Positions 3,710 through 64,000 of a stretch of DNA of 64,000 nt are shown here, one piece after another. The stretch comes from Allodiplogaster sudhausi (lineage: Eukaryota > Nematoda > Chromadorea > Rhabditida > Diplogasteridae), in the NCBI GenBank assembly GCA_945643635.1, contig CALZFC010000067.1, positions 1,247,001 to 1,311,000 on the forward strand. Reading direction: 5' to 3'. Position 1 is the first letter of the stretch; each line of letters begins with the position of its first letter. The notes beneath the pieces were generated by a model. The model saw only the letters and a list, made by a program, of their open reading frames with translations, did not search any database and was not told where the DNA came from. The translations under genes and the position numbers were made by a program.

Positions 3710-3790
3710 ACCCTGTGGTTTGCACCCGTTGGATTGCTATTTATTCGATGAGTCGGCAAGTTTGCTTGATTGAAATGTGGAGCTTGTTGG
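3710..3790 (+). promoter_or_regulatory. PSE-like/TATA small-RNA promoter unit L1
   Basis: ACCCTGTGGTTTGCACCC at 3710, TATTTA at 3738-3743, and TGAT puts a predicted 5' U at 3770, 32 nt from the TATA start. Family C (CTGTGGTTTGCACCCGTT type). Confidence 0.5.
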
Positions 3791-4150
3791 GTAGATGAAA
3801 CAATTATATACATACATATATACTGTTCACTTTGGATCGGAAAGGAATTAATGTTTACACCACACGAATTTATTTATTTTCCCTTTATTTAATAATCACA
3901 ATTGGCTTGGTTTACAATTGGGTCTATTTAGAACCTTGAAAAATTTATTAGCAGTACTCTTGCCAACCGACAGATTCCAGATCCCGATGGTCTGAGTTAT
4001 GGAATATAGAAAGTGTGAATAGTGCTCTACTTCACTGAGATTGATCTGCGGCTGTTGTCTGCCATTAGATTACAACTTCTACCATTCTTCTGTCTTATCT
4101 AATCACTCTGAGGCATCTTCCTCCATGCCCGTCACCTCCTTGACATCACA

Positions 4151-4166
4151 GCTCTCTCTCACTCTC

Positions 4167-4200
<34 letters not shown>

Positions 4201-4203
4201 TTC
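4151..4203. repeat. (CT)n microsatellite
   Basis: Near-perfect CT dinucleotide tract. It is one of more than 25 such tracts in the window and lies about 170 bp upstream of unit L2. Confidence 0.95.
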
Positions 4204-4373
4204 TCTCTTCTCTCACTCTATGCTCTCTCTCCACTCCACTTTTGCAGAAAGCAATAAAACCTCAATCAACACTTACAATCGAAATAAACGTGTTCTTTGT
4301 CCAATTCTTTGTCTCGTCTAATGCTTTTCTTTTTTTCTCAATTTACGTTTCTTGAAAGCGATCGATCGAGCGA

Positions 4374-4454
4374 ACCCGGTGTTTTTCCTCGCGCTGGCTC
4401 GTATAATTTCGAGTGGCCGCTCAAGTAATTCGCTGAATTAACTCGGTCGTAGAG
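4374..4454 (+). promoter_or_regulatory. PSE-like/TATA small-RNA promoter unit L2
   Basis: AACCCGGTGTTTTTCCTCGC at 4374, TATAAT at 4402-4407, and CGCT places a predicted 5' U at 4434, 32 nt from the TATA start. Family B. The sequence matches L3 and L8 up to AATTCGCT and then diverges from both. Confidence 0.6.
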
Positions 4455-4972
4455 AATAATATATTTAAATAATATTATATTGATCCATATATTTCAAATA
4501 AAGAATTAGGAATTTAAAAAAAAACATTTACAATTGTAGTTTTGTTAGAAGTCATTCAGATAAATAGCTGTTAATTCCATGCCCTCACTATCAGGACGGG
4601 TTTCATCTGAAAATGCAAGAATAAGCATTGGCACTTTTCTTTTTTCTTTGCTCGGAGAGCTCATTTGAAATTTTCTCCGTCGCTTTAACATTTATAATCG
4701 TTAGGTAGCATATTAAACGGTTTTTCTATTATTATTTTCAAATGTACAATTCCGTGTTGCTGCTTGTTATTTATGAATTGAGTTTTTTTTCTCTCATTTG
4801 AACTCGCTTGATCACTGTTCGTGAGCAATCACTCTAATCTCTTATCATTGGCAGCAATTCGAACTTTTAGGCGATATAATCGAATTTGAAGCAGAATTCT
4901 ATAGTTGAAACCGTGTTCTTTGCGAAATTCCTTTTTTACTTCTATTTGTATTACCTGGAAGTGATTCGACGA

Positions 4973-5053
4973 ACCCGGTGGTTTTCCTCGCACTCGCTCG
5001 TATTATTGCGAGTGGCTTCTCACGTAATTCGCTTCCATCTCCTTTTTGGAGAG
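4973..5053 (+). promoter_or_regulatory. PSE-like/TATA small-RNA promoter unit L3
   Basis: AACCCGGTGGTTTTCCTCGC at 4973, TATTAT at 5001-5006, and CGCT gives a predicted 5' U at 5033. Family B. A short palindrome, CACTCGC...GCGAGTG, straddles the TATA box. Confidence 0.6.
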
Positions 5054-5493
5054 TAATATTATCATAAAAAAGTATTAATAAAAAAATAATTTAATATAAT
5101 ATTTTTGTCATTGGTAATTCAGCGAAATGAGGGTGGATTCATCAGGAATAACGCGCATCGAGCAGGCGTGTTTTTTTTGCTCGGTCAGAACAACTGAAAA
5201 TTGCGCAGCGTTAACATTTATAATCGTTAAGTGCTATAGTAAATTCTGTTGTTGTTATTTTTGTTGCAAATATAGATTTCATATTGCAGATAGTTGTTTA
5301 TGAATGGCCTGGTTTTGCTTTTTTTTTTCATTGTAAATCGCATGATCTTTGATAATCAGCAGTTTTACAACGAAACGGTTGTAATCCACCGAGAACGTTA
5401 GAATTTTAATTACTAGTTGTGATATTTAAGAAAAAAGGAAAATAGTTCGTACGACACAACATGAAATGTTATTTCTATATTCTTTCCTTCTTA

Positions 5494-5574
5494 TGTTAGT
5501 AACCCAAATCGACATCAAGAGAAGAAGAGGACTCATCGAACATATAATGGTGCAGCGGGCGGAAGCTACAGGGT
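5494..5574 (-). promoter_or_regulatory. PSE-like/TATA small-RNA promoter unit L4
   Basis: Minus strand: ACCCTGTAGC starting at 5574, TATATG at 5546-5541, and TGAT gives a predicted 5' U at 5514. Identical to L12 through TTCTCTTGAT, then unrelated to it. Family C. Confidence 0.6.
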
Positions 5575-5782
5575 AAACAAATCACCACCATATAATAATA
5601 CTAATTTCTGTACGCATATAAATTATCGCCTCATCATATTCAGAAACAATTTTTCTAAAACTTACTCTTACTGAACAAAAAGCGAACTGTCTTTATCTGC
5701 TTTGTAACTGCTTTTGCTCCTCCTGAATACTAAATAGTGCCGATCAGCAGAAAAGATTCACGAGCTTCATCAGGCTGGCCAT

Positions 5783-5784
<2 letters not shown>

Positions 5785-5817
<33 letters not shown>
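5785..5817. repeat. (GA)n microsatellite
   Basis: GA dinucleotide tract lying just downstream of L5 on the minus strand, that is at lower coordinates. Confidence 0.95.
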
Positions 5818-5819
<2 letters not shown>

Positions 5820-5860
5820 CGAAGGAAGAGACGCAATACACATGTTTGAATACTATTTTT

Positions 5861-5941
5861 TCAGTGTACGCAGATGATGAATCGAATTGCATGAGAATGC
5901 AGTCACAATTATGCAAGCCAGCGCGAGGAAAAGCACCGGGT
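5861..5941 (-). promoter_or_regulatory. PSE-like/TATA small-RNA promoter unit L5
   Basis: Minus strand: ACCCGGTGCTTTTCCTCGCG from 5941, CATAAT (weak TATA) at 5913-5908, and CGAT gives a predicted 5' U at 5881. Family B. Confidence 0.5.
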
Positions 5942-6395
5942 CTGTCGATGGATCACTAACAGGAAATAAAAAGAGAAAAAAAAGGAATTTCGCAATGAAC
6001 ACAGTTTCAACTGTAGAATTTCGCTTCATGTTCGATTGTTTTGCCTAAAGCTCTCGAACTTGAGCTGATCGACCAGAGATCTAAATGAAAAAAAATCTTA
6101 AAACAGGCAATTTTAATAAACAACGATCAGTGATATGGATATCGCGATATCTTCAACAACAAAGAATAATTTAATATCTCAGGTAATCATCGTATATATG
6201 AAGAAAGACAGAATAAATGGCCGCTATTCCAATTGAGGTTTTCGAGCAAAAATTGGAGCAAAAAAAACGAACGTGCTTTTTCCCGATTCCTCTGAAGAAT
6301 CGGACCGGCTAATGGTGAGTATGGACAGCTTGGATAAATTATTGGTGGCTAATATTATGTTAATAAAATTTGATATCTGTATATGTACATATGAA

Positions 6396-6475
6396 AAGGG
6401 AAAGGCGCCTTCATGAGCGTGCTAATGTAGCGACCACACGATGTTATGCAAGCCAGCGCGAGGAAAACCAACGGT
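6396..6475 (-). promoter_or_regulatory. PSE-like/TATA small-RNA promoter unit L6 (weak TATA)
   Basis: Minus strand: ACCGTTGGTTTTCCTCGCGC from 6475, CATAAC at 6448-6443, and CGCT gives a predicted 5' U at 6416. A degenerate family B copy. Confidence 0.4.
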
Positions 6476-6849
6476 GTTTGCCTCGATAATCTCCATGAAA
6501 TACAAATAGAGGAGAAAACGAGAATGAATTGCGTTAAAAAAACAAGTTTCTTTTTCAATTCTTCTATGGTTTGATCGAGGTTTTATAATCGCCGGTTTGT
6601 TTGGATAATACCTGCTCAACTGTTTATTCGCTTATCAGGCCAGTGGGCTGATGTAAAGCACCTGGGATCTATCCCACGAGGAGGAGTGTTTTCTATTACA
6701 ATGCCATTTACTTGAATATTTTCATTCATTTATTTATCGTACATGAAATATGGTGTTTCAGTGGATGTTCTCACATCTTTAATGATTTAGGAATAAATAA
6801 ATAAATAAATAAATGAACAAATTAATTCTGGATATGTCTGGCTTTTCTC

Positions 6850-6880
<31 letters not shown>

Positions 6881-7410: not shown

Positions 7411-7492
7411 GTGACAGGGAATCACCAATAAGCGAATTAGTTCATCGGCCACTCGCAATTATACGAGCAAGCGCGAGGAAAAGCACCGGGTT
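7411..7492 (-). promoter_or_regulatory. PSE-like/TATA small-RNA promoter unit L8
   Basis: Minus strand: AACCCGGTGCTTTTCCTCGC from 7492, TATAAT at 7463-7458, and CGCT gives a predicted 5' U at 7431. One of the best family B copies. The downstream 20 nt are unrelated to those of L2 or L3. A further decayed family B copy without TATA lies at about 6900-6945. Confidence 0.62.
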
Positions 7493-7936: not shown

Positions 7937-8004
7937 ACGTCTCTATTTGACAATTAGGGGGGGGGGCACTATTGGGGGGGGGTCCAAATAGAGCGAAAAT
8001 ACGG
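7937..8004. repeat. short G-rich copy of the CCGTATTTT-type MITE end
   Basis: Two G runs of about 10 flank CACTATT, and the right edge reads AAAATACGGTA, matching the terminal repeat of the element at 27120-27516. It may be a severely deleted copy. Confidence 0.4.
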
Positions 8005-8411: not shown

Positions 8412-8560
8412 AAGAAAGAATGATATATGTACATATATACTGTTCACTTTTGATCTGAAAAAAAGATTAATGCGTACACCATAAAGCTTTTTTTATCCTT
8501 CTTTATCTCTCGTTTCCCTATTTCTCTCTCTTCTCTCTCTCACTTTTCCTCTTTGTTTTC

Positions 8561-8591
<31 letters not shown>

Positions 8592-12145: not shown

Positions 12146-12226
12146 TTGGAGCGATTCATCGGATGATCGAGCGAAGAAACGGACACAACGTTTATATTGC
12201 GGTGTGAAGTTCGCAAACCATCGGGT
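12146..12226 (-). promoter_or_regulatory. PSE-like/TATA small-RNA promoter unit L11
   Basis: Minus strand: ACCCGATGGTTTGCGAAC from 12226, TATAAA at 12196-12191, and CGAT gives a predicted 5' U at 12166 (30 nt). Confidence 0.5.
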
Positions 12227-13621: not shown

Positions 13622-13702
13622 TTTCGTTCCTTCTTTCAGTTATCAAGAGAAGAAAAGGACTCATCGAATACATAATGGTGTAACGGGCACAAACCACAGG
13701 GT
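13622..13702 (-). promoter_or_regulatory. PSE-like/TATA small-RNA promoter unit L12
   Basis: Minus strand: ACCCTGTGGTTTGTGCCCGT from 13702, TATGTA at 13674-13669, and TGAT gives a predicted 5' U at 13642. Shares TTCTCTTGAT with L4, then diverges. Confidence 0.6.
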
Positions 13703-15358: not shown

Positions 15359-15654
15359 CCCCTTCTTCTGATTGCGCTAATTCATATGAAGATGACAGAT
15401 TCGTCTTGCTCTTTCTCGCTCTCTCTCTCTCTCCGCCTATCTTGCTCCCTCCCTCTGTCTCTGCCTCTCTCTCAATCTCCAATTTTCCTTTGTTGTTATT
15501 TTCATGACTAATTCATAATTTTTTTCTGAAGTATAAAATATCCTCACTATACTGTATATGTAGTAGCCATTGAATTTACGGTTCAGGAGAAATTCATTAA
15601 TCTATTTTTTTTAGTTTGTACACATGTCAAATCAAATATATAAATGCAATCGAT

Positions 15655-15728
15655 TTGATCGGCGATTTACATCGCTATATATTTGATGAGGCCTCGTTCC
15701 AGTTTGCTGGTGAGAAGGTGATCTGTTG
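15655..15728 (+). promoter_or_regulatory. TATA/initiation unit L14 (PSE degenerate)
   Basis: TATATA at 15676-15681 and TGCT gives a T at 15708 (32 nt). Identical to L16 over CCTCGTTCCAGTTTGCT and different after it. The GGTGGTT box itself is lost. Confidence 0.4.
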
Positions 15729-16547: not shown

Positions 16548-16628
16548 ATACATTATCTTTTGCGAAAATCAATATCTCAGCGATTTTCATGGAATTATAC
16601 GAGCGGGGGTGACAAAAAGCACCGGGTT
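16548..16628 (-). promoter_or_regulatory. PSE-like/TATA small-RNA promoter unit L15
   Basis: Minus strand: AACCCGGTGCTTTTTGTCAC from 16628, TATAAT at 16599-16594, and TGAT gives a predicted 5' U at 16568. Family B. Confidence 0.52.
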
Positions 16629-17965: not shown

Positions 17966-18045
17966 GCGGTGGTTTTCGCCCGTTACATCGCTTTATACTC
18001 AAATGAGACCTCGTTCCAGTTTGCTGAAATGGTGGTCCGATCTAG
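17966..18045 (+). promoter_or_regulatory. PSE-like/TATA small-RNA promoter unit L16
   Basis: GCGGTGGTTTTCGCCCGTT at 17966, TATACT at 17994-17999, and TGCT gives a predicted 5' U at 18025 (31 nt). Shares the 5' leader of L14 but not the sequence after the T. Confidence 0.58.
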
Positions 18046-18195: not shown

Positions 18196-18281
18196 CAAAT
18201 TTGAGGGGGCGCTCTATCAAATTACATACATGAAGAGGCACTCGAGATATTACAAGCGGGCGTGAGGAAGAGCACCTGGTT
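18196..18281 (-). promoter_or_regulatory. PSE-like/TATA small-RNA promoter unit L17
   Basis: Minus strand: AACCAGGTGCTCTTCCTCAC from 18281, TAATAT at 18252-18247, and TGAT gives a T at 18216 (36 nt; 4-nt insertion relative to L18). Shares AATTTGATAG with L18, then diverges. Confidence 0.42.
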
Positions 18282-20457: not shown

Positions 20458-20543
20458 TATTTCGTTGCAAGCCGCCTATCAAATTATATGAGGAGGCACA
20501 TGAAATTATACGAGCGGGCGTGAGTGAGGAAAAGCACCGGATT
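20458..20543 (-). promoter_or_regulatory. PSE-like/TATA small-RNA promoter unit L18
   Basis: Minus strand: AATCCGGTGCTTTTCCTCAC from 20543, TATAAT at 20510-20505, and TGAT gives a predicted 5' U at 20478. Family B. Confidence 0.57.
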
Positions 20544-21904: not shown

Positions 21905-22172
21905 AAACCCCCTGGGGGCCGGGGGCCGTGGATAATTGAATGAAGTTCACCCCCCAGTTGAAGAACATGAGCCAATTTATGTTGAAAAGTGCCCCGAATT
22001 ATTTCTTATACGTTTCAGACGAATTTTCTCAATTTTGGATGAATTTTTCCTCCGACGCAGAAATTTTTTGGAAAAATTTTAAGATTTGGGGCCGGGGCCT
22101 CCTTCGGGGCCGACCTCGGGGGCCGGGGCCGACCACGGGGGGGCCGGGGCCGGATATTTTCGGCCCCCGGCC
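21905..22172. repeat. GGGGCC-rich block next to tRNA
   Basis: Clusters of GGGGCC at 21908-21930 and 22090-22172, with an AT-rich centre. The outer blocks resemble loose inverted ends. They are similar in style to the MITE at 50155-50629 but lack its CAGAGGTGGG terminus, and I see no target-site duplication. Confidence 0.5.
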
Positions 22173-24996: not shown

Positions 24997-26698
24997 CGGT
25001 ACGGTAGGAAATATGATTTTTCAAGCATTGAAGATAGTATTAGATAACGCAGAGATATCAGGCAAATCAATGCATAGCTCTTCAACGTCCATTGCTATTT
25101 TTCTTTAAAAAAAACTGGGTTCCGGCGAATAAAAGTTCGGAAAAAAACAGGGTGGGTGGGTTCTGATCGTTTCCCATTTTGACCTATTACTACTTGTTAG
25201 AAACTAATATGTATATGCATGTTTTTGTCGTCTAATCTTTTCTCGTCAGTGACTTCATTTGTTCGAATACTTTCTTCATTGCAGTAAGAATGTGGCCTGG
25301 TGGTTTTGCCGCTTGAACTAACTACTTTATCGTGCTTTACAAATGTTAATTGATTTAGCCCTCTGTTCTTTCGTTCTTATTCATATTCAGTATCGTAGGA
25401 AATGGCGGTTGAGGAAAGATAACAATGTAGCCGTAATTTGATCTGCCTAACATAATTATTCTTTTGCGTTTATATTAAATACTTGAAAAATCATATATCC
25501 TGCCGTATATTTGTAAAAAAAAAATTCTGCCTTATTGTTTAATATTTCTCTGTTCTTCCAGAAGTTACCGAATCTACCCTAACAGATTTTGCCCTTTCAG
25601 TTATCTGTTGTTGACGATTTTATCGTTACTAATTTTCCCTTACATAACCTGCCATGCATAATCTAACTTTACAGAATCTACCCCGATGTCATTCCTGCGA
25701 TGAAGCTGCTCGCTGCTGACATCTACACGTATTCGTCTGGATCGAGACAAGCCCAGACCGACTGCCTACAGTACTGTGAAGGGCCGACTAATGCTTATTT
25801 TGTTAGTTCTTTACTTTTGCATATATTTTATTAGATATATTTTTTTTAATTATTATAAATTTTATTTTGCTATTTTTTGGTGACTTTCTACATTATTATA
25901 TATAGCATCGTACCCAAAAAAAATTTTGTTGATCGTTACTATGGATATTGATTTTCTTTTACATAATCATATTACAGTATTGAATAGCTATTAGATTTTA
26001 TACTTTTTATGCAAAAAGCAAAAAAAAAAATTTTTCCCAGCTCGTCAAAGAGAAGTTCTCCCTAAACGACATTGGCCCGAAGCGAGAAAAGGCAAGCTAT
26101 GTCAAGTTGGCCGAAGCAATTAACCGGCCGGCCGGCAAGATACTCTTCGTCACGGATGTCATCGAAGGTACGGTGGTTATGGAACTGGTTTTAGTTTTAC
26201 TTTGAGAGTACGGTGGTTTTGTAACTGGTTTTGTTTCGCATTGATTCTACGGTGGTTTTGAAACTGGCTTTGTTTCGCATCGAGAGTACGGTGGGCTTCG
26301 ATCTGGTTTTTGTTGCGCAACTATAGTACACTAGTTTTCAAACGGTTTTTTGAGAGTTGCGAGAAATAGCAGCGGCCTTTGTAGTGTGCGTAGAATTTGA
26401 AAGTGTTCCCATTAACCTTGGGTAATGGAGAGAGCTTACTACAGTATCTAGTGCATGGTGACAACTTTATTGATTATCTAAAAGAATAGTATCACATTTA
26501 CCTGTGTCTTGTAAGCTTGATAAATAACTGAGAAGGGCTAATTGTGATACTAAACGCCGCGATCAAGGCATCATATCTGCAAGATATTTCATTTCCTTTA
26601 TCTATTATCCCGCCGTAAGAACTGCCGGTTCCTGTATGAATTTTTTTTATTCCTTTTTTATGACTCCTAAATCTATTTGGAAGAAAAAAACTAATATG

Positions 26699-27516: not shown

Positions 27517-28210
27517 CTTCAATGAACATAATTCCTAGTTTTTTTTTTTAAATTGAGGCATGAATCTTGTGACACGCAATTAAAAATTGAATTAAAATCT
27601 TTCTATGCTGTATGTAATATATTTTTACGTGGATAGAAAAAGCGTAGATTTTTTTATTTACTGGAAAAATGTTCTCTTGGTCACTTTTTATAAGAATTTC
27701 AATTTGATATATTTGACCGGTGGTTTAGCTAACGCTGAATCTTGTTTAAATCCGAATGCACTTTGAGTTCCTTGATAGATGACGTGTAACTACCGAGAAC
27801 AAAAAATATATAGACTCATAATCAGTAAATGTATTCCTTAACATTTGCTGTATACGGAAAGATGTGCAATTTTTATATATATTTAAACTTACTCTTTTGC
27901 CATTGATACAACTCGAAATTCCGTGACGCATAGCTGCTTATGAAATTTAAGTTGTCGTTTTTTTTATAAAATAGGTGCGCTCCCGTAAATTTTTTTTAAC
28001 GATTACGTTTAAAATATACATAAATTCAATTAAGATATTATTATGAAATTAATGAGAATTACTTGAAGTCTCAACCGAACAAAAGAGTGCGCCGAGGTGA
28101 CTCTTCTCCAGCAGTTCCTCCAGACTTGCCGTCAGCCGACTGAATAGAGGAGAGACAGCGAGGTCATAAGCTCATTTTTTTATTCTCTTTCTCTCTCTCT
28201 CTCTCTCTCG

Positions 28211-33410: not shown

Positions 33411-34009
33411 CTATTCACAGCGCTTCTTCAGTGCCTTGAAGCTGTAACCGCGAGAGAGAGCGATGGGAACCCCTTCGATGGTTTCCTCGATCGGGTAGTA
33501 TGACCAGGTTTTATTCGGGCACTCCGAACCGCAGTTGTGGATGACCTTCAGGAAGTAGTGCTGTAATAATAATATCTATCACAAGACAGTTGTCGCTTTA
33601 AGAAACCTGAAATTGAATCAATCAAACAAATTTACAGGACGGAAATTCCAAGAAGGGACGTCGCCCGAGATGGTGTACTTTGTCTTGCCATCCACGAGGA
33701 TGTCATCCAGGCGAGCCACGTAATAGTGACCTATAAGAATTATATCTTAAATTGTAATTTATTAAAAACTAAGTTATTATTTTTCGAAACAAGTGATTGA
33801 TTTTTAATTAATTTAATCACATGTGGCTGCACATTCGTCAAAGTCTGACCGCCGATGTAGTTGTATTTCCACAACTCAACGGTTGCCGTGGGTTTCTTGA
33901 GCCAAGCTTCAGGGCATTGGAGCGTGAAGCCCATGTTAATGGTGCTTCCGAAAGCCAGCGAAAACAGCGCAGACGCGCCAAACAAGCAGAGGAAGGAGAA
34001 GCGAAGCAT
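33411..34009 (-). CDS. transthyretin-like secreted protein A, intact
   Basis: Exons 34009-33850, 33730-33636 and 33560-33411 give 134 residues. Signal peptide: MLRFSFLCLFGASALFSLA. The mature part starts GSTINMGFTLQCPEAW, then TATVELWKYNYIG (first TTR strand block), LDDILVDGKTKYTISGD (the DG.F.LSGD-like turn), HYFLKVIHNC (the family YL.I.HNC) and ends FKALKKRCE. This is the domain order of nematode TTR-like (PF01060-type) proteins, which are secreted and mostly of unknown ligand. The first donor is GTCAGA, which joins GGC-G to GT-CAC correctly. TATA box on the minus strand at 34217-34210. The 5' UTR is interrupted: a TATTCCAG acceptor sits directly before the ATG, either a 5' UTR intron or a trans-splice site. 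Confidence 0.85.
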
Positions 34010-34209
34010 TTCTGGAATAGTAAACAAGTAAATAAAGTTGAACAGACAACAAGTTATTTGATCGCTTAAATTTGGCACATATTCCTACGAGGAAAATAGG
34101 TGTTCGAGAATGCAGAGTGGGTCAATTGAAAGAGAAGAGCGCACCCAGAGTCGACAGATCGCCAGAGGAGAAGGAAAGGAGAATGATGATGAGCACTGTG
34201 ACTTTCTCG

Positions 34210-40527: not shown

Positions 40528-41129
40528 ATGCTTCGCTTCTCCCTCCTTTTCTTGATTGGTGCTTCTGCGCTGTTTTCGCTGGCTTTCGGAAGCACCATTA
40601 ACATGGGCTTCACGCTCCACTGCCCTGAAGCTTCGCTCAAGAAACCCACGTCCACCGTTGAGTTGTGGAAATACAACTTCATCGGCTGTCAGACTTTGAC
40701 GAATAAATGTGTTGTCGCGTGTGATTAAATTCATTAAAATCAATCACTTATTTTGAGAAATAATAATTTAGATTTTAATAAGTTACAATTTAAGATATAA
40801 TTCTTATAGATCACGATTATGTGACCCGCCTGGATGACATCTTCGTGGATGGAAAGACAAAGTACACCATCTCGGGCGACGCCCCCAGCTCGTTTTTCCA
40901 TCCTGTAAGTTTGTTTGATTGATTCAATTTCAGGTTTCTTAAAGCGACAACTGTCTTGTGATAGATATTATTATTACAGCACTACTTCCTGAAGGTCATC
41001 CACAACTGCGGTTCGAAATGCCCGAATAAAACCTGGTCATACTACCCGATCGAGGAAACCATCGAAGGGGTTCCCATCGCTCTCTCTCGCGGCCACAGCT
41101 ACAAGAAACTGAAGAACCGCTGTGAATAG
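40528..41129 (+). CDS. transthyretin-like secreted protein D, intact
   Basis: Exons 40528-40687, 40810-40904 and 40980-41129 have exactly the sizes of gene A (160, 95 and 150 nt) and give 134 residues. Signal peptide: MLRFSLLFLIGASALFSLA. Then MGFTLHCPEASLKKP, STVELWKYNFIGYHDYV, LDDIFVDGKTKYTISGD, HYFLKVIHNCGSKCPNKT, ending HSYKKLKNRCE. The first donor is GTCAGA, as in A. It is the inverted partner of gene A across the palindrome and differs by scattered residues. A TTTCCTATTCCAG acceptor lies 3 nt before the ATG, consistent with a 5' UTR intron or trans-splicing. Secreted; ligand unknown. Confidence 0.86.
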
Positions 41130-42258: not shown

Positions 42259-42338
42259 ACCTGGTGGTTCTCCCAGTAAGTCTGCCTAGAAAAGGAACGA
42301 GCGAAAAGCAATAGCGGTAGTTTTTTTCCCACGTATGG
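42259..42338 (+). promoter_or_regulatory. PSE-like/TATA small-RNA promoter unit R1
   Basis: ACCTGGTGGTTCTCCCAGT at 42259, weak TATA (TAGAAA) at 42287, and CGGT gives a predicted 5' U at 42318 (31 nt). Confidence 0.5.
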
Positions 42339-42783: not shown

Positions 42784-42866
42784 GCCTGGTTGTTCTTCTA
42801 CCGGTAAGCCTGCCTATTAAGGTAGAGTGCGAAAAGCGGCAGTGATCAGAGATTAGACTGTCGATG
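42784..42866 (+). promoter_or_regulatory. PSE-like/TATA small-RNA promoter unit R2
   Basis: GCCTGGTTGTTCTTCTACCG at 42784, TATTAA at 42815-42820, and TGAT gives a predicted 5' U at 42846 (31 nt). Confidence 0.52.
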
Positions 42867-43312: not shown

Positions 43313-43392
43313 ACTTGGTGGATCTTCCGGTCAGTCTGTTTATAAAAAGAGAGTGCGAAAATCAACAGCGGTGACAAAGCGATGATATCTCC
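43313..43392 (+). promoter_or_regulatory. PSE-like/TATA small-RNA promoter unit R3
   Basis: ACTTGGTGGATCTTCCGGTC at 43313, TATAAA at 43341-43346, and CGGT gives a predicted 5' U at 43372 (31 nt). Confidence 0.57.
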
Positions 43393-43870: not shown

Positions 43871-43951
43871 ACATGGTGGTTCTATCCATTAAGTCTACAA
43901 ATAAAAGGAGAGAGCGAAAAGGAACTCCGTTCTGATCACCGTTCCGCTCGA
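43871..43951 (+). promoter_or_regulatory. PSE-like/TATA small-RNA promoter unit R4
   Basis: ACATGGTGGTTCTATCCATT at 43871, AATAAA at 43900-43905, and CGTT gives a predicted 5' U at 43931 (31 nt). The predicted RNA is identical to that of inverted unit R15. Confidence 0.5.
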
Positions 43952-44242: not shown

Positions 44243-44322
44243 ACCTGGTGGTTCTAGCAGTAAGCCTGAATACAAATGGAAAGAGCAAAAATCAACATCG
44301 ATCAATTGTTGTTCGACTAGTT
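44243..44322 (+). promoter_or_regulatory. PSE-like/TATA small-RNA promoter unit R5
   Basis: ACCTGGTGGTTCTAGCAGT at 44243, TACAAA at 44271-44276, and CGAT gives a predicted 5' U at 44302 (31 nt). Same subfamily as R9 and R23 (TACAAATGGAAAGAGC). Confidence 0.55.
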
Positions 44323-45332: not shown

Positions 45333-45414
45333 AATCAGAATGTCAAAAAATCAGTGCTGAGGTGAGGTTGCCTCTCACTCTGTATAGGTAGACTTACTGC
45401 TAGAACCACCAGTT
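45333..45414 (-). promoter_or_regulatory. PSE-like/TATA small-RNA promoter unit R7 (inverted)
   Basis: Minus strand: AACTGGTGGTTCTAGCAGT from 45414, TATACA at 45386-45381, and CACT gives a predicted 5' U at 45353 (33 nt). Confidence 0.5.
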
Positions 45415-46560: not shown

Positions 46561-46770
46561 TAAAAAAGAACTGTTCGGATATTGGGGATTTTCTCTGGTA
46601 GCCCCTCAGTCTTTTTTTATATTTCATTTTTATTTATCTAGTTATTATTCAATCAAGATGAATCTTACTATGCAATTATTATTTTATTTTTATTTAATTA
46701 CTTCATTTCTCAAGATCAATGTGACTACTAGATCTTTGTATTGCGTTGCCAATACCAAGGATATGACTGC

Positions 46771-46851
46771 AACCTGGTGGTTTTGCTAGTAACTCTGCTT
46801 ATAAAGGGAGAGAGGGAAAACCAGCCCTGTTCTCTTGTTGGCCCTTATCGG
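46771..46851 (+). promoter_or_regulatory. PSE-like/TATA small-RNA promoter unit R8
   Basis: AACCTGGTGGTTTTGCTAGT at 46771, TATAAA at 46800-46805, and TGTT gives a predicted 5' U at 46831 (31 nt). Confidence 0.57.
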
Positions 46852-48192
46852 CAGTTTACAATAATTATTAACTCAAATTTCGCTCAGACTTCCGTCCGTT
46901 TTAGAGACAGATGTGAATATTCATATTTTCATCTCTCTCAATCTCCTGAGATATATTCGAATTTTTATCTCTCTCTTTCTTTTATCACTAATTTAATCTC
47001 TTCTGCATCTGTAGATCTTGATCTCATTATAAAGCCTTCTCTCTTTCTCTCTCTATTTCTCTCATTTTCTCTCTCTCTTGCTCTCTCTTATTTTTTTGGG
47101 TCTAAATAGTAAAAAAAAAGCTTCAGATGCTCGGCCATTATTTTCTTTCACTTTCAAAGGCCCAAGGGCCCACAACATTGCTGTATGAAACAGCACTAAA
47201 GTGGTACAGGTAATAAAAAAGAACAGGGCAAAATTGTTTGATAAACCGGGGATAGCAGATAAAATAATAAAATAGGAAGGATGCGAGAAAATGGCAGCTC
47301 TCTAATGACAGATGAATATTTTTAAACTTCGAGCATATAAAATCATTGATAATTAGTTTTTGTGATTTTTTTTTTGCTAATTTTTTTTCGATTTCATCGA
47401 AACTATCACTGAAGAGGAGTTGTTAGAACATTAAAGCATGGATCAGCAAGGAACACTGCCTGCCTAGTGGTTAACTTCCAATAATGGCTTGTCTTAAAAA
47501 TTACATTATAACAGACAACAGAGTCTAGACTTCGATAATAAGTTACACTAATTGGTTGTTAGATTACGCACTAACTTAGCGCAATTTTTCAATCGACAAA
47601 AGTTTAACCAAGCTCAAAGTAACTTAGCGTTATGCACTTATTTTTAGCTAAGGTTCGCCTTAGTTTGTTAGGTCAATTACATTCTTTGCGACAGTGTTTA
47701 TGTCTCGCCTCGCCGTGGCCTGACAGCATTAAATATGTAAATGTACATTCGAAAAAGGCCGCCCGTTAAGACTGGGGAAATTTGCCGAATTTGTAACTGA
47801 GGAATGCTGTATGCTGAGTGCCTCATTGTCATATAATGCATATGCAAGATGACTGCGATAGCTTCGGAACGCTTATGTGAGAATTTTTTTAAATTTCAAG
47901 TTCCAGGTTCACACCTAATTTTGGAATTGGCTTTAAAAATTATTTTCTATTGTTTAGTTTAGCGCTAACTTACCATTAGCTCTATTTTCTAATTGTAAGG
48001 GATATAATGTAAATATAAAAGTGTGACCGAGCTCAAAGCGACATAGCGTTATTTACTTATGCATGTTGAGTTTAACCATGAGGTTCGCCTTATGGTTTGC
48101 GTAATTAGACTCTTTCAAGCGAATGTTCAGAAACCATAAATGATAAAGATTCTGGATTTTGCATGCATTTTCTTTGATGTAGATGTTTGATG

Positions 48193-48712: not shown

Positions 48713-48793
48713 AACCTGGTGGTTCTATCAGTAAGCCTGCCTACAAATTGAAAGAGCGAAAATCAACAGCGATTGGTTCTTCTTTTGTCATTC
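48713..48793 (+). promoter_or_regulatory. PSE-like/TATA small-RNA promoter unit R9
   Basis: AACCTGGTGGTTCTATCAGT at 48713, TACAAA at 48742-48747, and CGAT gives a predicted 5' U at 48773 (31 nt). Confidence 0.56.
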
Positions 48794-50146: not shown

Positions 50147-50637
50147 GTTCAACCCAGAGGTGGGAATGGGCCGGCCCGGCCCGGCCCTCAGGGCCGGCCG
50201 GCCCAATTTCCCAAGGCCCCGGGCCGGGCCGGGCCGGGCTCAACAAAAGTTGGGCCGGCCCGTAGGCCCGATTGGGCCCTCAAGTCAGAAGTTCCTAGCA
50301 AATTGAAGGTAAAAACATAAACTTGAAATTTTCGGAAGTATTTGAAACTGGTTTATATAGTGGCATTTTACTTAGGGGTGGGGGAAACATATTTTTACTT
50401 TGGTAAACTCATGCAAACCCAAAAGAAACCCCCAATTAACATAGAAAAAAAACATTTTTGGAAAAAAAATTTTTTTTTGATTTTGAAAATCGGGCTCAAA
50501 CGGGCCCACGGGCCGGGCCGGGCCGGGCCCAAAATTACAAGGCCCGGAAATTTCCGGCCGGGCCGGGCCGATACTTTGGGCCCCCAGGGCCGAGCTGGCC
50601 CAAAAATTTTGGGCCCATTCCCACCTCTAGTTCAACC
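50147..50637. mobile_element. hAT-type MITE with 8-bp target-site duplication
   Basis: The element itself is 50155-50629 (475 bp). Terminal inverted repeats are CAGAGGTGGGAATGGGCC on the left and GGGCCCATTCCCACCTCTA on the right. They are flanked by a perfect 8-bp duplication, GTTCAACC, at 50147-50154 and 50630-50637. The subterminal regions are built of GGGCC/GGCCC repeats and the centre is AT-rich with no transposase. It is inserted in a copy of the membrane-segment module. TSD length and CAGAGGTGGG-type ends point to hAT. Confidence 0.92.
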
Positions 50638-50860
50638 TGAATAATTTACCATATCATAAATTTTTTCTTGCCATTCTGACTCATTCTAAATCTTACTAAT
50701 TAATTATAATTGTATTTCTTTTTTATTTATTTATTTTTTCTTCAGAGATGCTAAATATTCCTTGTTAATATTATATTACATTTTATTTATTAAATCTTAC
50801 GATATATTAAAAAAATAATTAAATGTTTGTTCGCATTGCCAATTCCAAGAAGATGACTGG

Positions 50861-50939
50861 AAGCTGGCTTCTTCCAGTAAGTCTGCCTATAAAGGGAGAG
50901 GGCGAAAAGCATCACCGGTAGACAAGGCCGTAGCATTTT
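50861..50939 (+). promoter_or_regulatory. PSE-like/TATA small-RNA promoter unit R11
   Basis: AAGCTGGCTTCTTCCAGT at 50861 (GGTGG box damaged), TATAAA at 50888-50893, and CGGT gives a predicted 5' U at 50919 (31 nt). Confidence 0.5.
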
Positions 50940-53010: not shown

Positions 53011-53441
53011 AACCAGGTGGTTCTAACCGTAAGTGTATGTGAGTATAAGAACCATTCTAGTGTATTTCTATTTCTAGTGTGCACATATGTATACTGTATC
53101 TATGTCTCTCATCGCTCTGTATAGTTCGTAGCTCGTTCCACTCGCTCCTCCCTCTCCTGCCCCTCCCCTTTCTCTCATGCACTTAAGTGTTCGATATAAC
53201 TCATCTAGAGGTCTAGCCCGGAGGCGGCCTGCCGACCGCCGCGTCCCCCCTTAGGTCTCCTGTCTCCTCTTCTCCCATCTCCCTCTCCCCGGTGTCTCCT
53301 CTTCTCAACGTATTGTTCCCACCATAAGCGATAAACCTGATCCTACCGTACGTGTAAGGCACCAGCATTGACTTAACCATGAGTCTGTGTACAAAGGGAG
53401 AGAGGGAAAAGCAACACAGATTCCCGGCAGTTAGTCGCTTC
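53011..53441 (+). promoter_or_regulatory. PSE-like unit R13, split by an insertion
   Basis: The PSE-like half AACCAGGTGGTTCTAACC is at 53011. The matching TATA half (GAGTCTGTGTACAAAGGGAG) resumes at 53381, with TACAAA at 53390 and T at 53421. The two halves join seamlessly when 53029-53378 is removed, by comparison with R12. Confidence 0.6.
53029..53373. mobile_element. 345-bp insertion with 5-bp TAACC duplication
   Basis: Flanked by TAACC at 53024-53028 and 53374-53378. Comparison with unit R12 shows the duplication plus insert are absent there. The interior is GC-richer with CTCCCTCTCC-type sequence. Ends (GTAAGTG...TTGACT) are not the usual TG...CA and have no terminal inverted repeats, so the class is unknown; solo LTR is one possibility. 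Confidence 0.65.
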
Positions 53442-54090: not shown

Positions 54091-54160
54091 CGCTGGTGGT
54101 TCTACCCAGTAAGTCTGCCTAGAGAGGGAAAGAGCTCCTAATTCTCTGCTTTTTCCAGAC
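54091..54160 (+). promoter_or_regulatory. decayed PSE-like unit R14
   Basis: CGCTGGTGGTTCTACCCAGT at 54091. The TATA site is TAGAGA and the leader is deleted, so initiation is not expected. Confidence 0.35.
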
Positions 54161-55074
54161 AGATAATGTAATATATTCTCTTTATCAATCAACTAGGATA
54201 CGCACGAATTACATTTTATCTCTACTCTACTGTCTCTTATCACTGATTAAATTTCTTCTGTATCTTTCGCTCTTGATCTCTACATTCCGCCCTCTCTCCC
54301 TCTCTTTCTCTCTCTCTCTCCTACTCTCTCTCTCTCTCTTATACCTTGGGTCTATATAGGAAAAAAAGCTTTTCATGTTCCGATATTATTATCTTTTGCT
54401 TTCAAGGGCCCTAAAAAAGGAACAAAACCCTGCCGTGGTCTTCAGAGAAAGCAAATTTATCATTCAACGAGCCTTATCATTGATTAGTAATCAGCTGCTG
54501 TGACTTTGCTCTATTTTTCAGTCGACATATATAATGTAAACCTAGTAATTTTACAGAGCTCAAAATGACTTATCTTTATGCACTTATCATTATTAATTTC
54601 TGGATTTTTGTTTGTGGATAGCCCTTGATGTATGTATGTACATACATACATAGGTGCTTGATGTTAGCAAAGCGCGCGTCCAATCCGTCCGATCAAAAGA
54701 AGAGCAGAGTGCCAGCGGCAGCGATGAGTTGTTGTTCTCTTAAAATAGTTGAAAATAATGGCAGAATATTATACTATGAGAGAGAGAGCGGACTACAGAG
54801 ATCAAGATACGGAAGATATTAAAGCGTTAATAAGACAGAAAAGAGAAGATATAAAAGTGATTCGAACGTTTCACAGGAAACTGACCATGAGAGAGAGAGT
54901 CTGTCAGAAAATATCTGTCAGAAAACAGCATAGAGGAACGAGGCAAATGATAGATAATAATTCTTCCTATAATCGATGAAGAAAACTGAATCGAAGATTG
55001 AGTGAAACATTAACTAACTAAAATTTAAAGTTCATGATAGTTTTATGCCTGTTGACTATATTTATTAAGATTCA

Positions 55075-55156
55075 TCGAGCGGAACGGTGATCAGAACGGA
55101 GTTCCTTTTCGCTCTCTCCTTTCATAGGTAGACTTGAAGGATAGAACCACCATGTT
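55075..55156 (-). promoter_or_regulatory. PSE-like/TATA small-RNA promoter unit R15 (inverted)
   Basis: Minus strand: ACATGGTGGTTCTATCC from 55155, TATGAA at 55126-55121, and CGTT gives a predicted 5' U at 55095. The inverted duplicate of R4, including the predicted RNA. Confidence 0.53.
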
Positions 55157-56504: not shown

Positions 56505-56584
56505 AACCTGGTGGTTTGCCAGTAAGTCTGTCTATAAAGGGAGAGAGTGAAAAGGAACAGCGGTATCTTTGTTACGATGGTCCA
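56505..56584 (+). promoter_or_regulatory. PSE-like/TATA small-RNA promoter unit R16
   Basis: AACCTGGTGGTTTGCCAGT at 56505, TATAAA at 56533-56538, and CGGT gives a predicted 5' U at 56564 (31 nt). Confidence 0.6.
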
Positions 56585-57452: not shown

Positions 57453-57534
57453 AACCTGGTGGTTCTACCCAGTAAGTCTGCCTATGAAGGGAGAGGGCGA
57501 AAAGCAACACTAATCTCATGGTGATAAGCGCGCT
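57453..57534 (+). promoter_or_regulatory. PSE-like/TATA small-RNA promoter unit R17
   Basis: AACCTGGTGGTTCTACCCAG at 57453, TATGAA at 57483-57488, and TAAT gives a predicted 5' U at 57514 (31 nt). Confidence 0.57.
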
Positions 57535-58076: not shown

Positions 58077-58156
58077 ACCTGGTGGTTCTAGCAGTGAGTC
58101 TGCTTATAAAGGGAGAGATGGAAGAGCAACACCGATCATCGGCCTTGATTGTATCT
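58077..58156 (+). promoter_or_regulatory. PSE-like/TATA small-RNA promoter unit R18
   Basis: ACCTGGTGGTTCTAGCAGT at 58077, TATAAA at 58105-58110, and CGAT gives a predicted 5' U at 58136 (31 nt). The best consensus match of the array. Confidence 0.62.
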
Positions 58157-59615: not shown

Positions 59616-59699
59616 ACCTGGTGGTTTGCCCAGTAAATATGCCTATGTATATAGGGAGAAAGGGGACAGCAACACCGATAGTCGAATTAGTCACCTTGG
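59616..59699 (+). promoter_or_regulatory. PSE-like/TATA small-RNA promoter unit R19
   Basis: ACCTGGTGGTTTGCCCAGT at 59616, TATATA at 59648-59653, and CGAT gives a predicted 5' U at 59679 (31 nt). Confidence 0.58.
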
Positions 59700-60444
59700 A
59701 AATATTTTTAACTATTATCGCTTCTAATCAAATGTTTTTTTCCAGACAGGTGAATGTATTTTATTATCTTTCTCAACCTCCTATGATATATTAGCCACTT
59801 TTTTATACTCATGTATCTCTTATCACTGATTTAATCTCTTCGGTATCTTATGCTCTTGATCTTTCTATTTCGCCTTCTTCCCCCCTCTCCCTCTCTCCCT
59901 CGCTGTCGCTCTCTCTCTCGCGCTCTCTCTCTCTCTTATTCTCTTGTTTCTGAATTGTGTAAAATCAGTATACATACCTAGATGCTCTGCCATTATTTTA
60001 TTCTACTTTCAAGGGCCCACAACGTTGCTGTATCAAACACTCTTCAGTGAAAGTGTATTTATCATTGGGCGAGCCTTATCGTGGATTAGAAATCAGAAAG
60101 AATGCTATATTATGTATCAGCAATTCTGCTTATTGAAATAACTGTATTAAATGAAGGCCATAGTGCTCCGGATTCTAGAAACCTCAATTAAGAAGAGCTC
60201 TTCTGAGATCGACTTAAAAATGGAATAAATATGTATAAGTACACATAACCGAAAAAAACGGGGCAAAAAAAAACCGATAAAAAGGGGGGTGTATCTCGGA
60301 TAGCATATCAGCCATGCTGAATATTACTATTTAATCATTATTTTCCTAACTTCTTGTTCTTGACTTATTGTATCTCATGATATTTTTTAATTGTAGACAA
60401 TTAAATGTTTGCATCGCATTGCCAATTCCAAGAAGATGACTGGA

Positions 60445-60525
60445 ACCTGGTGGTTCTACCCTGTAAGTCTACCTATAATAGGAGAGAGAAGAAATCAACA
60501 CCGATTTTGACAATTTATCTCGACA
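60445..60525 (+). promoter_or_regulatory. PSE-like/TATA small-RNA promoter unit R20
   Basis: ACCTGGTGGTTCTACCCTGT at 60445, TATAAT at 60474-60479, and CGAT gives a predicted 5' U at 60505 (31 nt). Confidence 0.6.
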
Positions 60526-60539
60526 GCCATCCATTCGCC

Positions 60540-60702
60540 CATGTCTCCCTCTCGCGTCCTTTCTCCTTTTTTCTCTCCCCTTTTCTCTCTCTCATTCATT
60601 CTCCCTCTCTCCTTCTCTCTTTCTCTCTCCCTCTCTCCATCTCTCTTTCTCTCTCTCTCTTTCTCTCCCTCTCTCTTTCCCTCTCCCTCTCTCCCTCTCT
60701 TT

Positions 60703-60733
<31 letters not shown>

Positions 60734-60740
60734 ATCCCTC
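60540..60740. repeat. long (CT)n tract
   Basis: About 200 bp of CT/CCCT-rich sequence. Confidence 0.95.
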
Positions 60741-60781
60741 CCTGGCCGGCACTTACAGTTGTATATGTTCTTCTGGCAGCA

Positions 60782-60833
60782 TATAAAAGGAGAGAGCGAA
60801 AAGCAACAACGATTTCGCTGATGTGAGATGGGT
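60782..60833 (+). promoter_or_regulatory. TATA/initiation half-unit R21
   Basis: TATAAA at 60782-60787, then the standard GGAGAGAGCGAAAAGCAACA leader. CGAT gives a T at 60813 (31 nt). The PSE-like box is missing upstream. Confidence 0.4.
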
Positions 60834-61039
60834 TGGCCATAATTATTATCTGCCATTTGGCTCTTCATTCTATGTTTTTTCCTGACAGATAAATATGTTT
60901 TCCTCTCCCTATCTCAACCTCCATCTGAATCACTTTTTATCTTTACTCTTTTCTCTCCTATTACTGATTTAATCTCTTCTGCATCTTTAGCCTAGCATTG
61001 ATTAAATCTCTTTGCATCTTAATCTCAGTAGTCCGCTCT

Positions 61040-61128
61040 GTCTCTCTCTCTCTCTCTCACTCTCTCTCTCTCTCACTCTCTCTCTCTCTTTCTCTCTCTC
61101 TCTTTCTCTCTCTCGCTCTCTCGTTTTT
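61040..61128. repeat. (CT)n tract
   Basis: CT dinucleotide tract of an array unit. Confidence 0.95.
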
Positions 61129-61672
61129 TTTGGGTCTGAATAGTATAAAAATTTTTTTTATTAAACACTGCCTCATTGTCAGTGAGAGAGGAGAGCCTTA
61201 TCATCGTAGATTAGTAATCAGATGATGCGCTACATTATGATTCAGAAATTCAGACTTCTAGATCAGTATAGTAAGTAAATGTCAAATTGAATTCTAAAAA
61301 ATTTCAATAAAAAGAGCTGCTGGGAGATCGGCTAACAAATTGAACAAATATGCATTAGAACACGTAACAAAAAAGAACAGGGCAAGATTGGTAGAAAAAC
61401 CGGGAAATGCAGATAAAATAGCAAGGAAGCGAAAAAATGGTGGGTCACATGGGAAATGAAAATTTGGAATAATTCGAATATGAAAGCGCGCGAATTGCCG
61501 GCTACGACATCTTCCCGTCGGCCGAGATTCTGTGTTTCCTCAAGTTGCCTCCTCCTACTTGGCGGCCGCTCTCTGCACCATCTAATTATTATTTTATTAG
61601 CTTTATTTATTACATCTCTTTAAAAAGGTTTCAATCTTTGTATGGCATTGCCTATACCAAGAAGATGACTGC

Positions 61673-61754
61673 AACCTGGAGGTTCTAAAAGTAAATCTGC
61701 CTATATATTGAGAGAGCGAAAAGCAATAGGTGATGCATACCGCTTTGGTGTCAA
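61673..61754 (+). promoter_or_regulatory. PSE-like/TATA small-RNA promoter unit R22
   Basis: AACCTGGAGGTTCTAAAAGT at 61673, TATATA at 61702-61707, and TGAT gives a predicted 5' U at 61734 (32 nt). Confidence 0.53.
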
Positions 61755-61991
61755 ATAATAACTAGATAGCTTTTCGCTCCTAGATGATCTCTATTTTTTT
61801 TCTCTTATCACTGATTTAGCGCATTTATCATCAGGCGAGAATTTTATCGTAGATTAGTTATCAGATACATATGTAATTCTGACTTCTGTTATAGATGTTG
61901 TAAATAAATGTCAAAATGTCTCGGATCAAAATGTCAAATCAATTATTAGTTGTTATTTCGGTTTAATTTTTGAGTTATTTTATCTGACTGC

Positions 61992-62072
61992 AAGCTGGTG
62001 GTTCTTGCAGTAAGATTGCCTACAAATGGAAAGAGCGAAAATCAGCAGCGATCCCACCTCCTTTAGAATTCG
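61992..62072 (+). promoter_or_regulatory. PSE-like/TATA small-RNA promoter unit R23
   Basis: AAGCTGGTGGTTCTTGCAGT at 61992, TACAAA at 62021-62026, and CGAT gives a predicted 5' U at 62052 (31 nt). Confidence 0.55.
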
Positions 62073-62159
62073 AGGCATTTATTTCCTGATTCTATTTTGC
62101 TTCCTGACTCTCTCTCCCTTTCTCTCTCACTCTCTCTCTTTCTTTGGTCATATCATACT

Positions 62160-62330
62160 TCCCCCTTATCAGTCCATACAGCGAATGGAAGGATATCGGA
62201 GAGACCAGACGCTACAAGTGCTTCTCTGTACAACACAGACGTACTCCTCGATTTCTATGGGGGCCATGACTACAGCTCAACAAAAGGAAGATCACATAAT
62301 CTAGTTCTTGTTATTAGTAGCGAGTTCTGT
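62160..62330 (+). pseudogene. TTR-like C-terminal exon remnant, second copy
   Basis: Reads SERPDATSASLYNTDVLLDF, then YGGHDYSSTKGRSHN (GGHDYS at 62259-62276), nearly the same as 49072-49230 and open in the same frame. Confidence 0.45.
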
Positions 62331-63031
62331 TGTGAACTGGCAGCTGTAACGTATAATATGAATGCTCAATTGTCTACCATCGAATCGACTTGTGTTGAGA
62401 AATTAATGATAAATCAGAATGAAGAGGGAAATTCCCAGAAAGCAAGCCTTTAATTTCATCTAAAGCAGAGGTTCGTTTTCTTCTAAAATGTGAAAATTTT
62501 CCATTTGGCGCGATCAATTCAGCCGAAGTAGTAAAGTGTCGCTTTTCTGTGTGGCTAAACATAGGATGATGACATGAAGTTAGAGCCCTTTACCACCCAT
62601 TTTGCCTCAGAATGTCAACAAATTGCTGTCCTTCCCTGTGGGTGCTTACCTGAAGTTGGTGTAATTAAACCGATATAAAATGGGGTGTATCTCGGGTTGC
62701 ATCTCAGTCATGCTGAATATTACAATTTAATCATTATTTCCTTGTATGTTCTTGATTACTTTATCTCAGTATATATTTTACTCGTAGACTATTAAATGTT
62801 CGTGTCGCGTTGCCAAATTTCACGAATATGACTGCAACTTATTTTGTTCTCTCTCTCTAATCGTTTTTGCCTGAATAGTATAAAAAAACACTCTTGATGC
62901 TCTGCCATTATTTTCATGTACCTTCAAAGTTCCACAACATTGCTGTATCAAACACTCTTCAGTAAAAACGTATTTATCAATAGGCGAGTCTAATCATTGA
63001 TTAGAAATCAGAACAGTTCAAAATAATGTAG

Positions 63032-63110
63032 CTTCAGTTTTTTTAAGGCCAATCGGTGTCGATTTCCGCTATCTGCATCTATATACAGACATACTGTTAG
63101 AACCCCCAGT
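63032..63110 (-). promoter_or_regulatory. PSE-like/TATA small-RNA promoter unit R24 (inverted)
   Basis: Minus strand: ACTGGGGGTTCTAACAGT from 63110, TATATA at 63085-63080, and CGAT gives a predicted 5' U at 63052 (33 nt). Confidence 0.5.
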
Positions 63111-63599
63111 GTGCTGTCGTATTCTTGGTAATGGCAACGCGAAACAAACATTTATAAGGCTACTTTTAGTAAATCGTGAGGTATAATAAGTATATAAATT
63201 AAAACGAAATAAAATAATAATCGAAAATTAAGATTCAGCATCATTGAATAAAAACTAAATAAATACAAACAAAACAGATTACAATTAAATAGTGATATGC
63301 AGCATGACTAATTGTAAAATGCTTCCCGATTCTCCCCCATCTCCGAAGAGCTCTTTTTATGTGAGGTTTCTTGAATCCGAGGCTCTGTGACATTCATTTC
63401 GCACAGCTATTTTAGATCAGTGATAAGAGACAAAATAAGTAAAAATAAAAAGTTGTTACTATGTATCACATGAGGTTGAGAGAGAGGAAAATACACACAT
63501 TCATCTATCACGAAAGAGCGAGGCATACAAGTTCCTTTTTTTATGCTAATCTTTTCTCTTATCACATACATATTTAATCACGATAACTCAATTCTGCAT

Positions 63600-63608
63600 T
63601 ATTTCTCT

Positions 63609-63643
<35 letters not shown>

Positions 63644-63680
63644 GCTCTTCCCCCTCTCTCTCTCTCCCACTCTCTTCTCT
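63600..63680. repeat. (CT)n tract
   Basis: CT dinucleotide tract of the next-to-last unit. Confidence 0.95.
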
Positions 63681-63842
63681 CTTTTTCTATTTCGCTGTCT
63701 ATCTTTTTTGTTCTTTTGGATCTGAATAGTATAAAAAGACTTTAGACGTTATTTTCTTTTGCTTTCAAAGGCCCTCAAAATATATCAAAACTGGTCTTCA
63801 CTAAACATTTGTATCGCATTGCCAAACAAGAATATGACTGCA

Positions 63843-63923
63843 ACCTTGTTGGTTTTACTAGTAAGTCTGCATATGAACGGAGCGAACGAAAAGCATCACC
63901 GATATCCTTACGAAAGATTCCTC
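63843..63923 (+). promoter_or_regulatory. PSE-like/TATA small-RNA promoter unit R25
   Basis: ACCTTGTTGGTTTTACTAGT at 63843, TATGAA at 63872-63877, and CGAT gives a predicted 5' U at 63903 (31 nt). Confidence 0.54.
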
Positions 63924-64000
63924 ATAATTATTATCTCACATTTCATTCTTCTATGCGCTTTCCTGTCAGATGAATGTATTGTTCTCTCTCTCTCAATCTC

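Follow-up and report, generated by a model that had tools for sequence, protein, structure and literature searches.

The window considered here is a 64,000-nucleotide stretch of the genome of the nematode Allodiplogaster sudhausi (contig C67, C67:1247001-1311000; genome of 351.8 Mb in 382 contigs), and it carries many short units in which a GGTGGTT-type box is followed by a TATA-like element and then by a YRNT tetramer whose T is the predicted 5' U of a small RNA. An initial annotation of the window had read these units as a cluster resembling those of PIWI-interacting RNAs (piRNAs), each with its own promoter. The right-hand set comprises 26 aligned units, that is, 24 picked by their box and two orphan downstream halves (53372 and 60790), with the common core GACTGCAACCTGGTGGTTCT..CCAGTAAGTCTGCCTATAAAGGGAGAGAGCGAAAAGCAACANCGAT, and the other set comprises 18 units anchored by eye, 17 of them left-hand and one at 25.3 kb. 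Left-hand units fall into two other groups, families A and B, and the distribution along the window is uneven, with almost no units between about 28 and 42 kb. Units in the window include the following (positions are those of the window):

3714..3790, plus strand: left-hand, family B; TGTGGTT box, TATTTA at 3738, TGAT, predicted U 3770
4378..4454, plus strand: left-hand, family A; GGTGTTT box, TATAAT at 4402, CGCT, predicted U 4434
4977..5053, plus strand: left-hand, family A; exact box, TATTAT at 5001, CGCT, predicted U 5033
5494..5572, minus strand: left-hand, family B; degenerate box, TATATG at 5546, TGAT, predicted U 5514
5861..5936, minus strand: left-hand, family A; CATAAT at 5913, CGAT, predicted U 5881
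6396..6474, minus strand: left-hand, family A; CATAAC at 6448, CGCT, predicted U 6416
7411..7487, minus strand: left-hand, family A; TATAAT at 7463, CGCT, predicted U 7431
12146..12222, minus strand: left-hand; TATAAA at 12196, CGAT, predicted U 12166
13622..13698, minus strand: left-hand, family B; TATGTA at 13674, TGAT, predicted U 13642
15650..15728, plus strand: left-hand; degenerate box, TATATA at 15676, TGCT, predicted U 15708
16548..16623, minus strand: left-hand, family A; TATAAT at 16599, predicted U 16568
17968..18045, plus strand: left-hand, family B; exact GGTGGTT, TATACT at 17994, TGCT, predicted U 18025
18201..18277, minus strand: left-hand, family A; TAATAT at 18252, YRNT at 31, predicted U 18221
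20458..20538, minus strand: left-hand, family A; TATAAT at 20510, TGAT, predicted U 20478
25299..25374, plus strand: isolated site; exact box, TTTATC at 25326, TGAT, predicted U 25354, TATA-to-T distance 28, outside the rule given below
27719..27796, plus strand: isolated site; exact box, no clear TATA, TGAT, predicted U 27776
42263..42338, plus strand: right-hand; predicted U 42318, T7 run within the body
42788..42866, plus strand: right-hand; TGAT, predicted U 42846
43317..43392, plus strand: right-hand; TATAAA, CGGT, predicted U 43372
43875..43951, plus strand: right-hand; CGTT, predicted U 43931
44247..44322, plus strand: right-hand; TACAAA, CGAT, predicted U 44302
45333..45410, minus strand: right-hand; TATACA, YRNT at 33, predicted U 45353
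46776..46851, plus strand: right-hand; TATAAA, TGTT, predicted U 46831
48718..48793, plus strand: right-hand; TACAAA, CGAT, predicted U 48773
50862..50939, plus strand: right-hand; shortened box, TATAAA at 50888, predicted U 50919
53016..53092, plus strand: right-hand; exact box, no clear TATA (TGAGTA at 53040), YRNT at 32, predicted U 53072
54095..54170, plus strand: right-hand; weak TATA (TAGAGA), predicted U 54150
55075..55151, minus strand: right-hand; TATGAA, CGTT, predicted U 55095
56510..56584, plus strand: right-hand; TATAAA, CGGT, predicted U 56564
57458..57534, plus strand: right-hand; TATGAA, TAAT, predicted U 57514
58081..58156, plus strand: right-hand; TATAAA, CGAT, predicted U 58136
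59620..59699, plus strand: right-hand; TATATA at 59648, CGAT, predicted U 59679
60449..60525, plus strand: right-hand; TATAAT, CGAT, predicted U 60505
60782..60833, plus strand: right-hand orphan downstream half; no box, TATAAA, CGAT, predicted U 60813
61678..61754, plus strand: right-hand; GGAGGTT box, TATATA, predicted U 61734
61997..62072, plus strand: right-hand; TACAAA, CGAT, predicted U 62052
63032..63107, minus strand: right-hand; TATAGA, CGAT, predicted U 63052
63848..63923, plus strand: right-hand; TATGAA, CGAT, predicted U 63903

Two oppositely oriented right-hand units, with predicted U at 43931(+) and 55095(-), have an identical predicted 21-mer.

The spacing of the three elements is nearly fixed. 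In the right-hand set, the TATA-like element begins 23-28 nt (mostly 24-25) after the box start, and 22 of the 26 units (the others being 44831, 49759, 52482 and 53372) have the T of YRNT 30-33 nt away from where that element begins, 18 of the 26 at exactly 31 nt, the probability of a YRNT at that spacing being 0.298 for random 4-nt windows in the 40-64 kb region. The same 30-33 nt rule is followed by 14 of the 18 other units, with 6903, 8356, 8862 and 25326 as exceptions. The grammar first reported, in 20 of 25 right-hand and about 13 of 18 left-hand units, is thus borne out, as is the remark that most right-hand units give exactly 31 nt. GGTGGTT occurs 27 times in the window against a Markov mean of 2.9, and a strict three-part version of the unit occurs eight times, against none in 60 simulations and none in the reversed sequence. 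Units within a repeat family are homologous, so that counts inside the window are by themselves no proof, and the wider support for the spacing comes from the same offset on contig C4 and from a genome-wide excess.

Three stretches of C4 (200 kb), fetched because an earlier list had shown this contig to be dense in matches, were pooled with the window to give 98 unique GGTGGTT sites, 47 of which have CG[AT]T at an offset of 52-55 nt, compared with 0.57 sites per offset elsewhere. On C4 alone the figure is 38 of 71 against a background of about 2% (26/45, 4/9 and 8/17 in the individual stretches, and 9/27 in the window), and Markov simulations for C4 gave a mean of 0.37 where 43 were seen with duplicates kept. 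The genome-wide motif search that the initial annotation had named as a check shows the same spacing recurring, with 1361 matches to GGTGGTT-N44-48-CGAT compared with 279 for the reversed pattern, an excess of around a thousand. Among the first 100 matches listed, 94 are on C4 (0.06-3.17 Mb) and six on C1 (over 10 Mb), the loci being far denser on C4 than on C1 among these; eight C1 sites were sampled and judged by eye, with no clear unit and one doubtful case.

A set of 61 loci was then defined by requiring [CT]G[AT]T near the expected offset, three of 64 being dropped as near-identical. The distance from box to T is 55-57 nt in 51 of the 61, and the tetramers at the predicted U are CGAT (38), CGTT (13), TGAT (7) and TGTT (3). 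In the right-hand family (21 of the 26 rows used, five dropped), conservation is strongest from the box to YRNT and drops once the predicted 5' U is reached, pairwise identity averaging 0.67-0.82 over positions -70 to -1 and 0.36 and 0.32 over the first 20 nt, before it partly recovers to 0.42-0.55 further downstream. Within families of the mixed set, the promoter has an identity of 0.82 and the body one of 0.55, followed by 0.60 and 0.56 in the DNA downstream. The predicted 21-mers are distinct in 59 of 61 cases; seven have an identical second copy in 264 kb, and there are otherwise no near matches in these 264 kb beyond those of a shuffled control, so that targets could not be named. An Rfam scan returned only a tRNA-Arg in the window and nothing at 18 other loci, and the units therefore match no known RNA family there. 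The Ruby motif CTGTTTC, searched for at -65..-4, is present in 0/61 loci, and GTTTC in 6/61 against 5/61 in a control stretch.

The promoters were also compared with those of the small nuclear RNA (snRNA) genes of the same genome. Of 18 distinct U6 copies, 16 have a GGTT (GGAT in two) that precedes the RNA by 51 nt, with TATA following this element at 21 nt in 14 of them and at 23 nt in two. U2 has 46 matches genome-wide, and in the eight copies whose upstream DNA was read, GGTT lies 43 nt before the RNA in six and 42 nt in one, is absent in one, and is accompanied by TATA in 0/8; the absence of TATA from promoters of snRNA genes served by RNA polymerase II (Pol II) is here an observation made on U2 alone. 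Among the 61 loci the commonest GGTT-to-TATA distance is 21 nt (mostly 21-26 nt where the TATA is exact), and 51 of them place the predicted start 50-52 nt from GGTT (range 48-54). The promoter spacing of the loci matches the U6 type (51 nt) and not the U2 type (43 nt, no TATA). The combination of a proximal sequence element (PSE) with TATA, as first proposed, is supported, with the spacing of the species' own U6 promoters, and in the suggested snRNA comparison the U6 spacing agrees and the U2 spacing does not. The loci share this spacing and a GGTT core with U6, which may point to a SNAPc-related promoter, but the PSE flanks differ: the core is GTAGGTTGC-like in U6 and GGTGGTTT in the loci, and the U6/U2 core TAGGTTG is found in 0/61. 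U6 neighbourhoods contained nothing but U6 in the Rfam scan. The U2 genes at C158:103883-189778 are spaced about 1.58 kb apart in an array whose orientation switches midway, and U1, with 42 matches, often forms divergent pairs a few hundred bases apart (C283, C287, C144, C27).

Signals downstream of the start bear on the polymerase. GC content, used in place of melting temperature (Tm), falls from 0.444 at +4..+18 to 0.211 at +25..+39, and this difference of 0.233 was unmatched in 5000 draws of control YRNT sites, whose maximum was 0.083. According to one study (PMC6436959), nematode piRNA loci start two nucleotides before the mature U, carry SNAPc-derived motifs and show a high-to-low Tm signature of pausing; the drop seen here at about +25 looks like this Pol II signature. 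TTTT is not enriched within 60 nt after the start (0.41 vs 0.44 in the control) or at +20..+60 (0.34 vs 0.31), and is slightly rarer than in the control in the first 30 nt (0.21 vs 0.27), in contrast to U6, of which 17 of 18 distinct copies end in at least five T. Taken together, unenriched T-runs and the GC drop favour Pol II.

A search of the genome for the Piwi domain gave 109 matches. An exon at C116 is clearly of the AGO clade, with a near-identical exon read at C6:6.15 Mb, and four further exons are closest to AGO10 and AGO4, Piwi-like 2 outscoring AGO3 in one of them. An exon pair at C20:4.56 Mb is of the PIWI clade (PIWIL1 at 93 bits vs 41.7 for the best eukaryotic AGO), and near-identical exons are found at C347 and C40. 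These PIWI-clade exons (C20:4564851, C347:980520, C40:23282) have GTVTPVCYNI where PIWIL1 has PTHYN, the histidine of which is catalytic, and the corresponding proteins may be slicing-deficient. A published survey found PIWI outside Clade V nematodes only in plectids (PMC6436959).

The reading of the window as a piRNA cluster is supported by the recurrence of the spacing elsewhere, the fall of conservation at the predicted 5' U in the right-hand family, the GC drop at +25 and the PIWI-clade exons. Probably, the units are individually promoted piRNA genes, each likely to be transcribed by Pol II from a U6-spaced promoter, because the spacing between box and start is fixed, a TATA-like element is frequent and nearly all units carry a different short sequence. 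The steps from promoter binding (by SNAPc and TBP) and the choice of polymerase to transcription, processing and loading into PIWI are inferred, along the following lines: a SNAPc- or USTC-like complex would bind the GGTGGTT box and TBP would dock onto the TATA-like element, Pol II would initiate at the R of YRNT, two nucleotides upstream of the mature U, then pause and be released at the GC-to-AT boundary near +25, and the resulting short capped RNA would undergo trimming before it enters a PIWI-clade Argonaute. In C. elegans, USTC is described as interacting with TBP-1 (PMC11262695).

Other explanations account for part of these observations. The units may be U6-type genes of RNA polymerase III (Pol III), with PSE and TATA, for small RNAs other than piRNAs, or piRNAs may be made by Pol III; the box-TATA-start spacing equals that of U6 in this genome, and plectid piRNA loci are described as being without TATA (PMC6436959), which there marks Pol III snRNA loci only, so that TATA by itself points to Pol III. 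Such genes are unlikely here, given that T-runs are not enriched, that the GC-to-AT drop at +25 is the pattern of Pol II pausing, that a T7 lies inside the body of unit 42263 and that the box is unlike the U6/U2 PSE. A Pol III array had been the initial annotation's main alternative, and the T-run counts make it less likely. It is quite unlikely that the units are decayed copies of repeat families, which would have inherited the spacing with a shared ancestral promoter and give no small RNA: the fall in right-hand conservation at the U after its peak from box to YRNT, the same offsets kept despite visibly different spacer sequence and a GC drop aligned to the U speak against decay, even though right-hand units sit in longer homologous repeats, several units are degenerate, most promoters form a single-linkage group and the genome-wide box-TATA count is uneven between strands, as repeats would make it. 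Promoters of longer Pol II transcripts, whether mRNAs or long non-coding RNAs, are highly improbable, since a PSE-like box upstream and an AT dip 25 nt past the start are unexpected for mRNA promoters; an ordinary Pol II promoter could well have a TATA some 30 nt ahead of a YR start, and a few open reading frames (ORFs) of 110-140 aa overlap or follow units (46732-47106, 60405-60818, 62067-62450), but by eye these resemble CT-repeat read-through, no family search having been made on them.

Besides the link of TATA with Pol III, several results weigh against the assignment of the units to piRNA genes. The 61 loci were selected for [CT]G[AT]T near the expected offset, only 34 of them have an exact TATA at 15-35 nt from the box, and some units in the window are decayed or degenerate. 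Genome-wide, the box with an exact TATA at N20-30 is only about twofold enriched (3299 vs 1703 in the control), with uneven strands (759 vs 2540) and some boxes counted repeatedly. Greater variability of the body than of the downstream DNA is seen in the right-hand family and not clearly in the mixed set, and the idea of several independent promoter families is unsupported, as single linkage at a 68% cut groups 58 of the 61 promoters. The neighbouring genes also belong on this side: the window contains a histone H1 gene with introns, whose highest identities, 74-77% across some 40% of the query, are with H1s of ascarid nematodes and whose best score is to a mussel, and two genes labelled by eye as transthyretin-like and enolase-phosphatase-like match no Pfam family, the first being without a homologue, so these labels are withdrawn.

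Elsewhere in the window, minus-strand ORFs of a long interspersed nuclear element (relatives of reverse transcriptase) at 2-3572 are followed by a 17-nt tandem repeat of 7.2 copies (3451-3572). Two similar spliced genes lie in opposite orientation at 33743-34084(-) and 40528-41129(+), and their product, by eye a small secreted protein, has no Pfam family and no homologue that we found. Stretches rich in G+C, GGGGCCGGGGCC and GGGCCGGGCC, stand amid AT-rich DNA at 22100-22160 and 50150-50640. Finally, 39-nt tandem repeats ACGGTGGTTTTGAAACTGGTTTTGTTTCGCAT at 26168-26319, apparently intronic, contain both a GGTGGTT box and GTTTC and call to mind the plectid arrangement of SNAPc and Ruby motifs.

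Nematode piRNA promoters are thought to descend from snRNA promoters, with plectids as the published case of a full SNAPc motif, TATA-less, according to PMC6436959. In A. sudhausi, we consider it rather probable that at least about a thousand piRNA genes use Ruby-less U6-type promoters with PSE and TATA, either by co-option of a Pol III-class layout with its own PSE variant and with the Pol II pausing terminator kept, or with Pol III serving some loci. If true, this would be a second, independent path from snRNA to piRNA transcription, and a Ruby-less species with PSE and TATA would allow direct tests of where piRNA promoters came from and of what decides between Pol II and Pol III. A search of the open-access literature found no TATA-bearing nematode piRNA promoter in print. 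Membership of type I is not claimed outright, because Ruby is absent and the loci are predicted from DNA alone; they appear to behave like type I piRNA genes and are best called a new TATA-bearing, U6-type variant.

Among known systems, the U6 promoter of the same genome is alike in its commonest GGTT-to-TATA distance of 21 nt and in its distance to the start, and differs in its PSE core and its terminal T-run. The type I 21U-RNA genes of C. elegans share with the predicted loci single-RNA units, clustering, a U two nucleotides after the start in YRNT, a GC-to-AT pausing signature and, putatively, a SNAPc-linked promoter (PMC6436959), and PIWI-clade exons are present here, but the C. elegans genes have the Ruby motif CTGTTTC; in its place the loci carry GGTGGTT, 55-57 nt ahead of the U in 51 of 61, and frequently a TATA-like element. 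The 21-22U RNAs of Strongyloides ratti (PMC9203780) are likewise 5'-U and clustered with AT-rich upstream sequence; that species is reported to be without PIWI genes and Ruby, whereas PIWI-clade exons and a box at fixed distance are present here. Plectus sambesii and P. murrayi (Beltran et al. 2019, PMC6436959) have a SNAPc-type 5' motif that resembles their own snRNA promoters, as the box of the loci may do, and combine it with Ruby and no TATA, whereas in A. sudhausi Ruby is absent and TATA-like elements are common.

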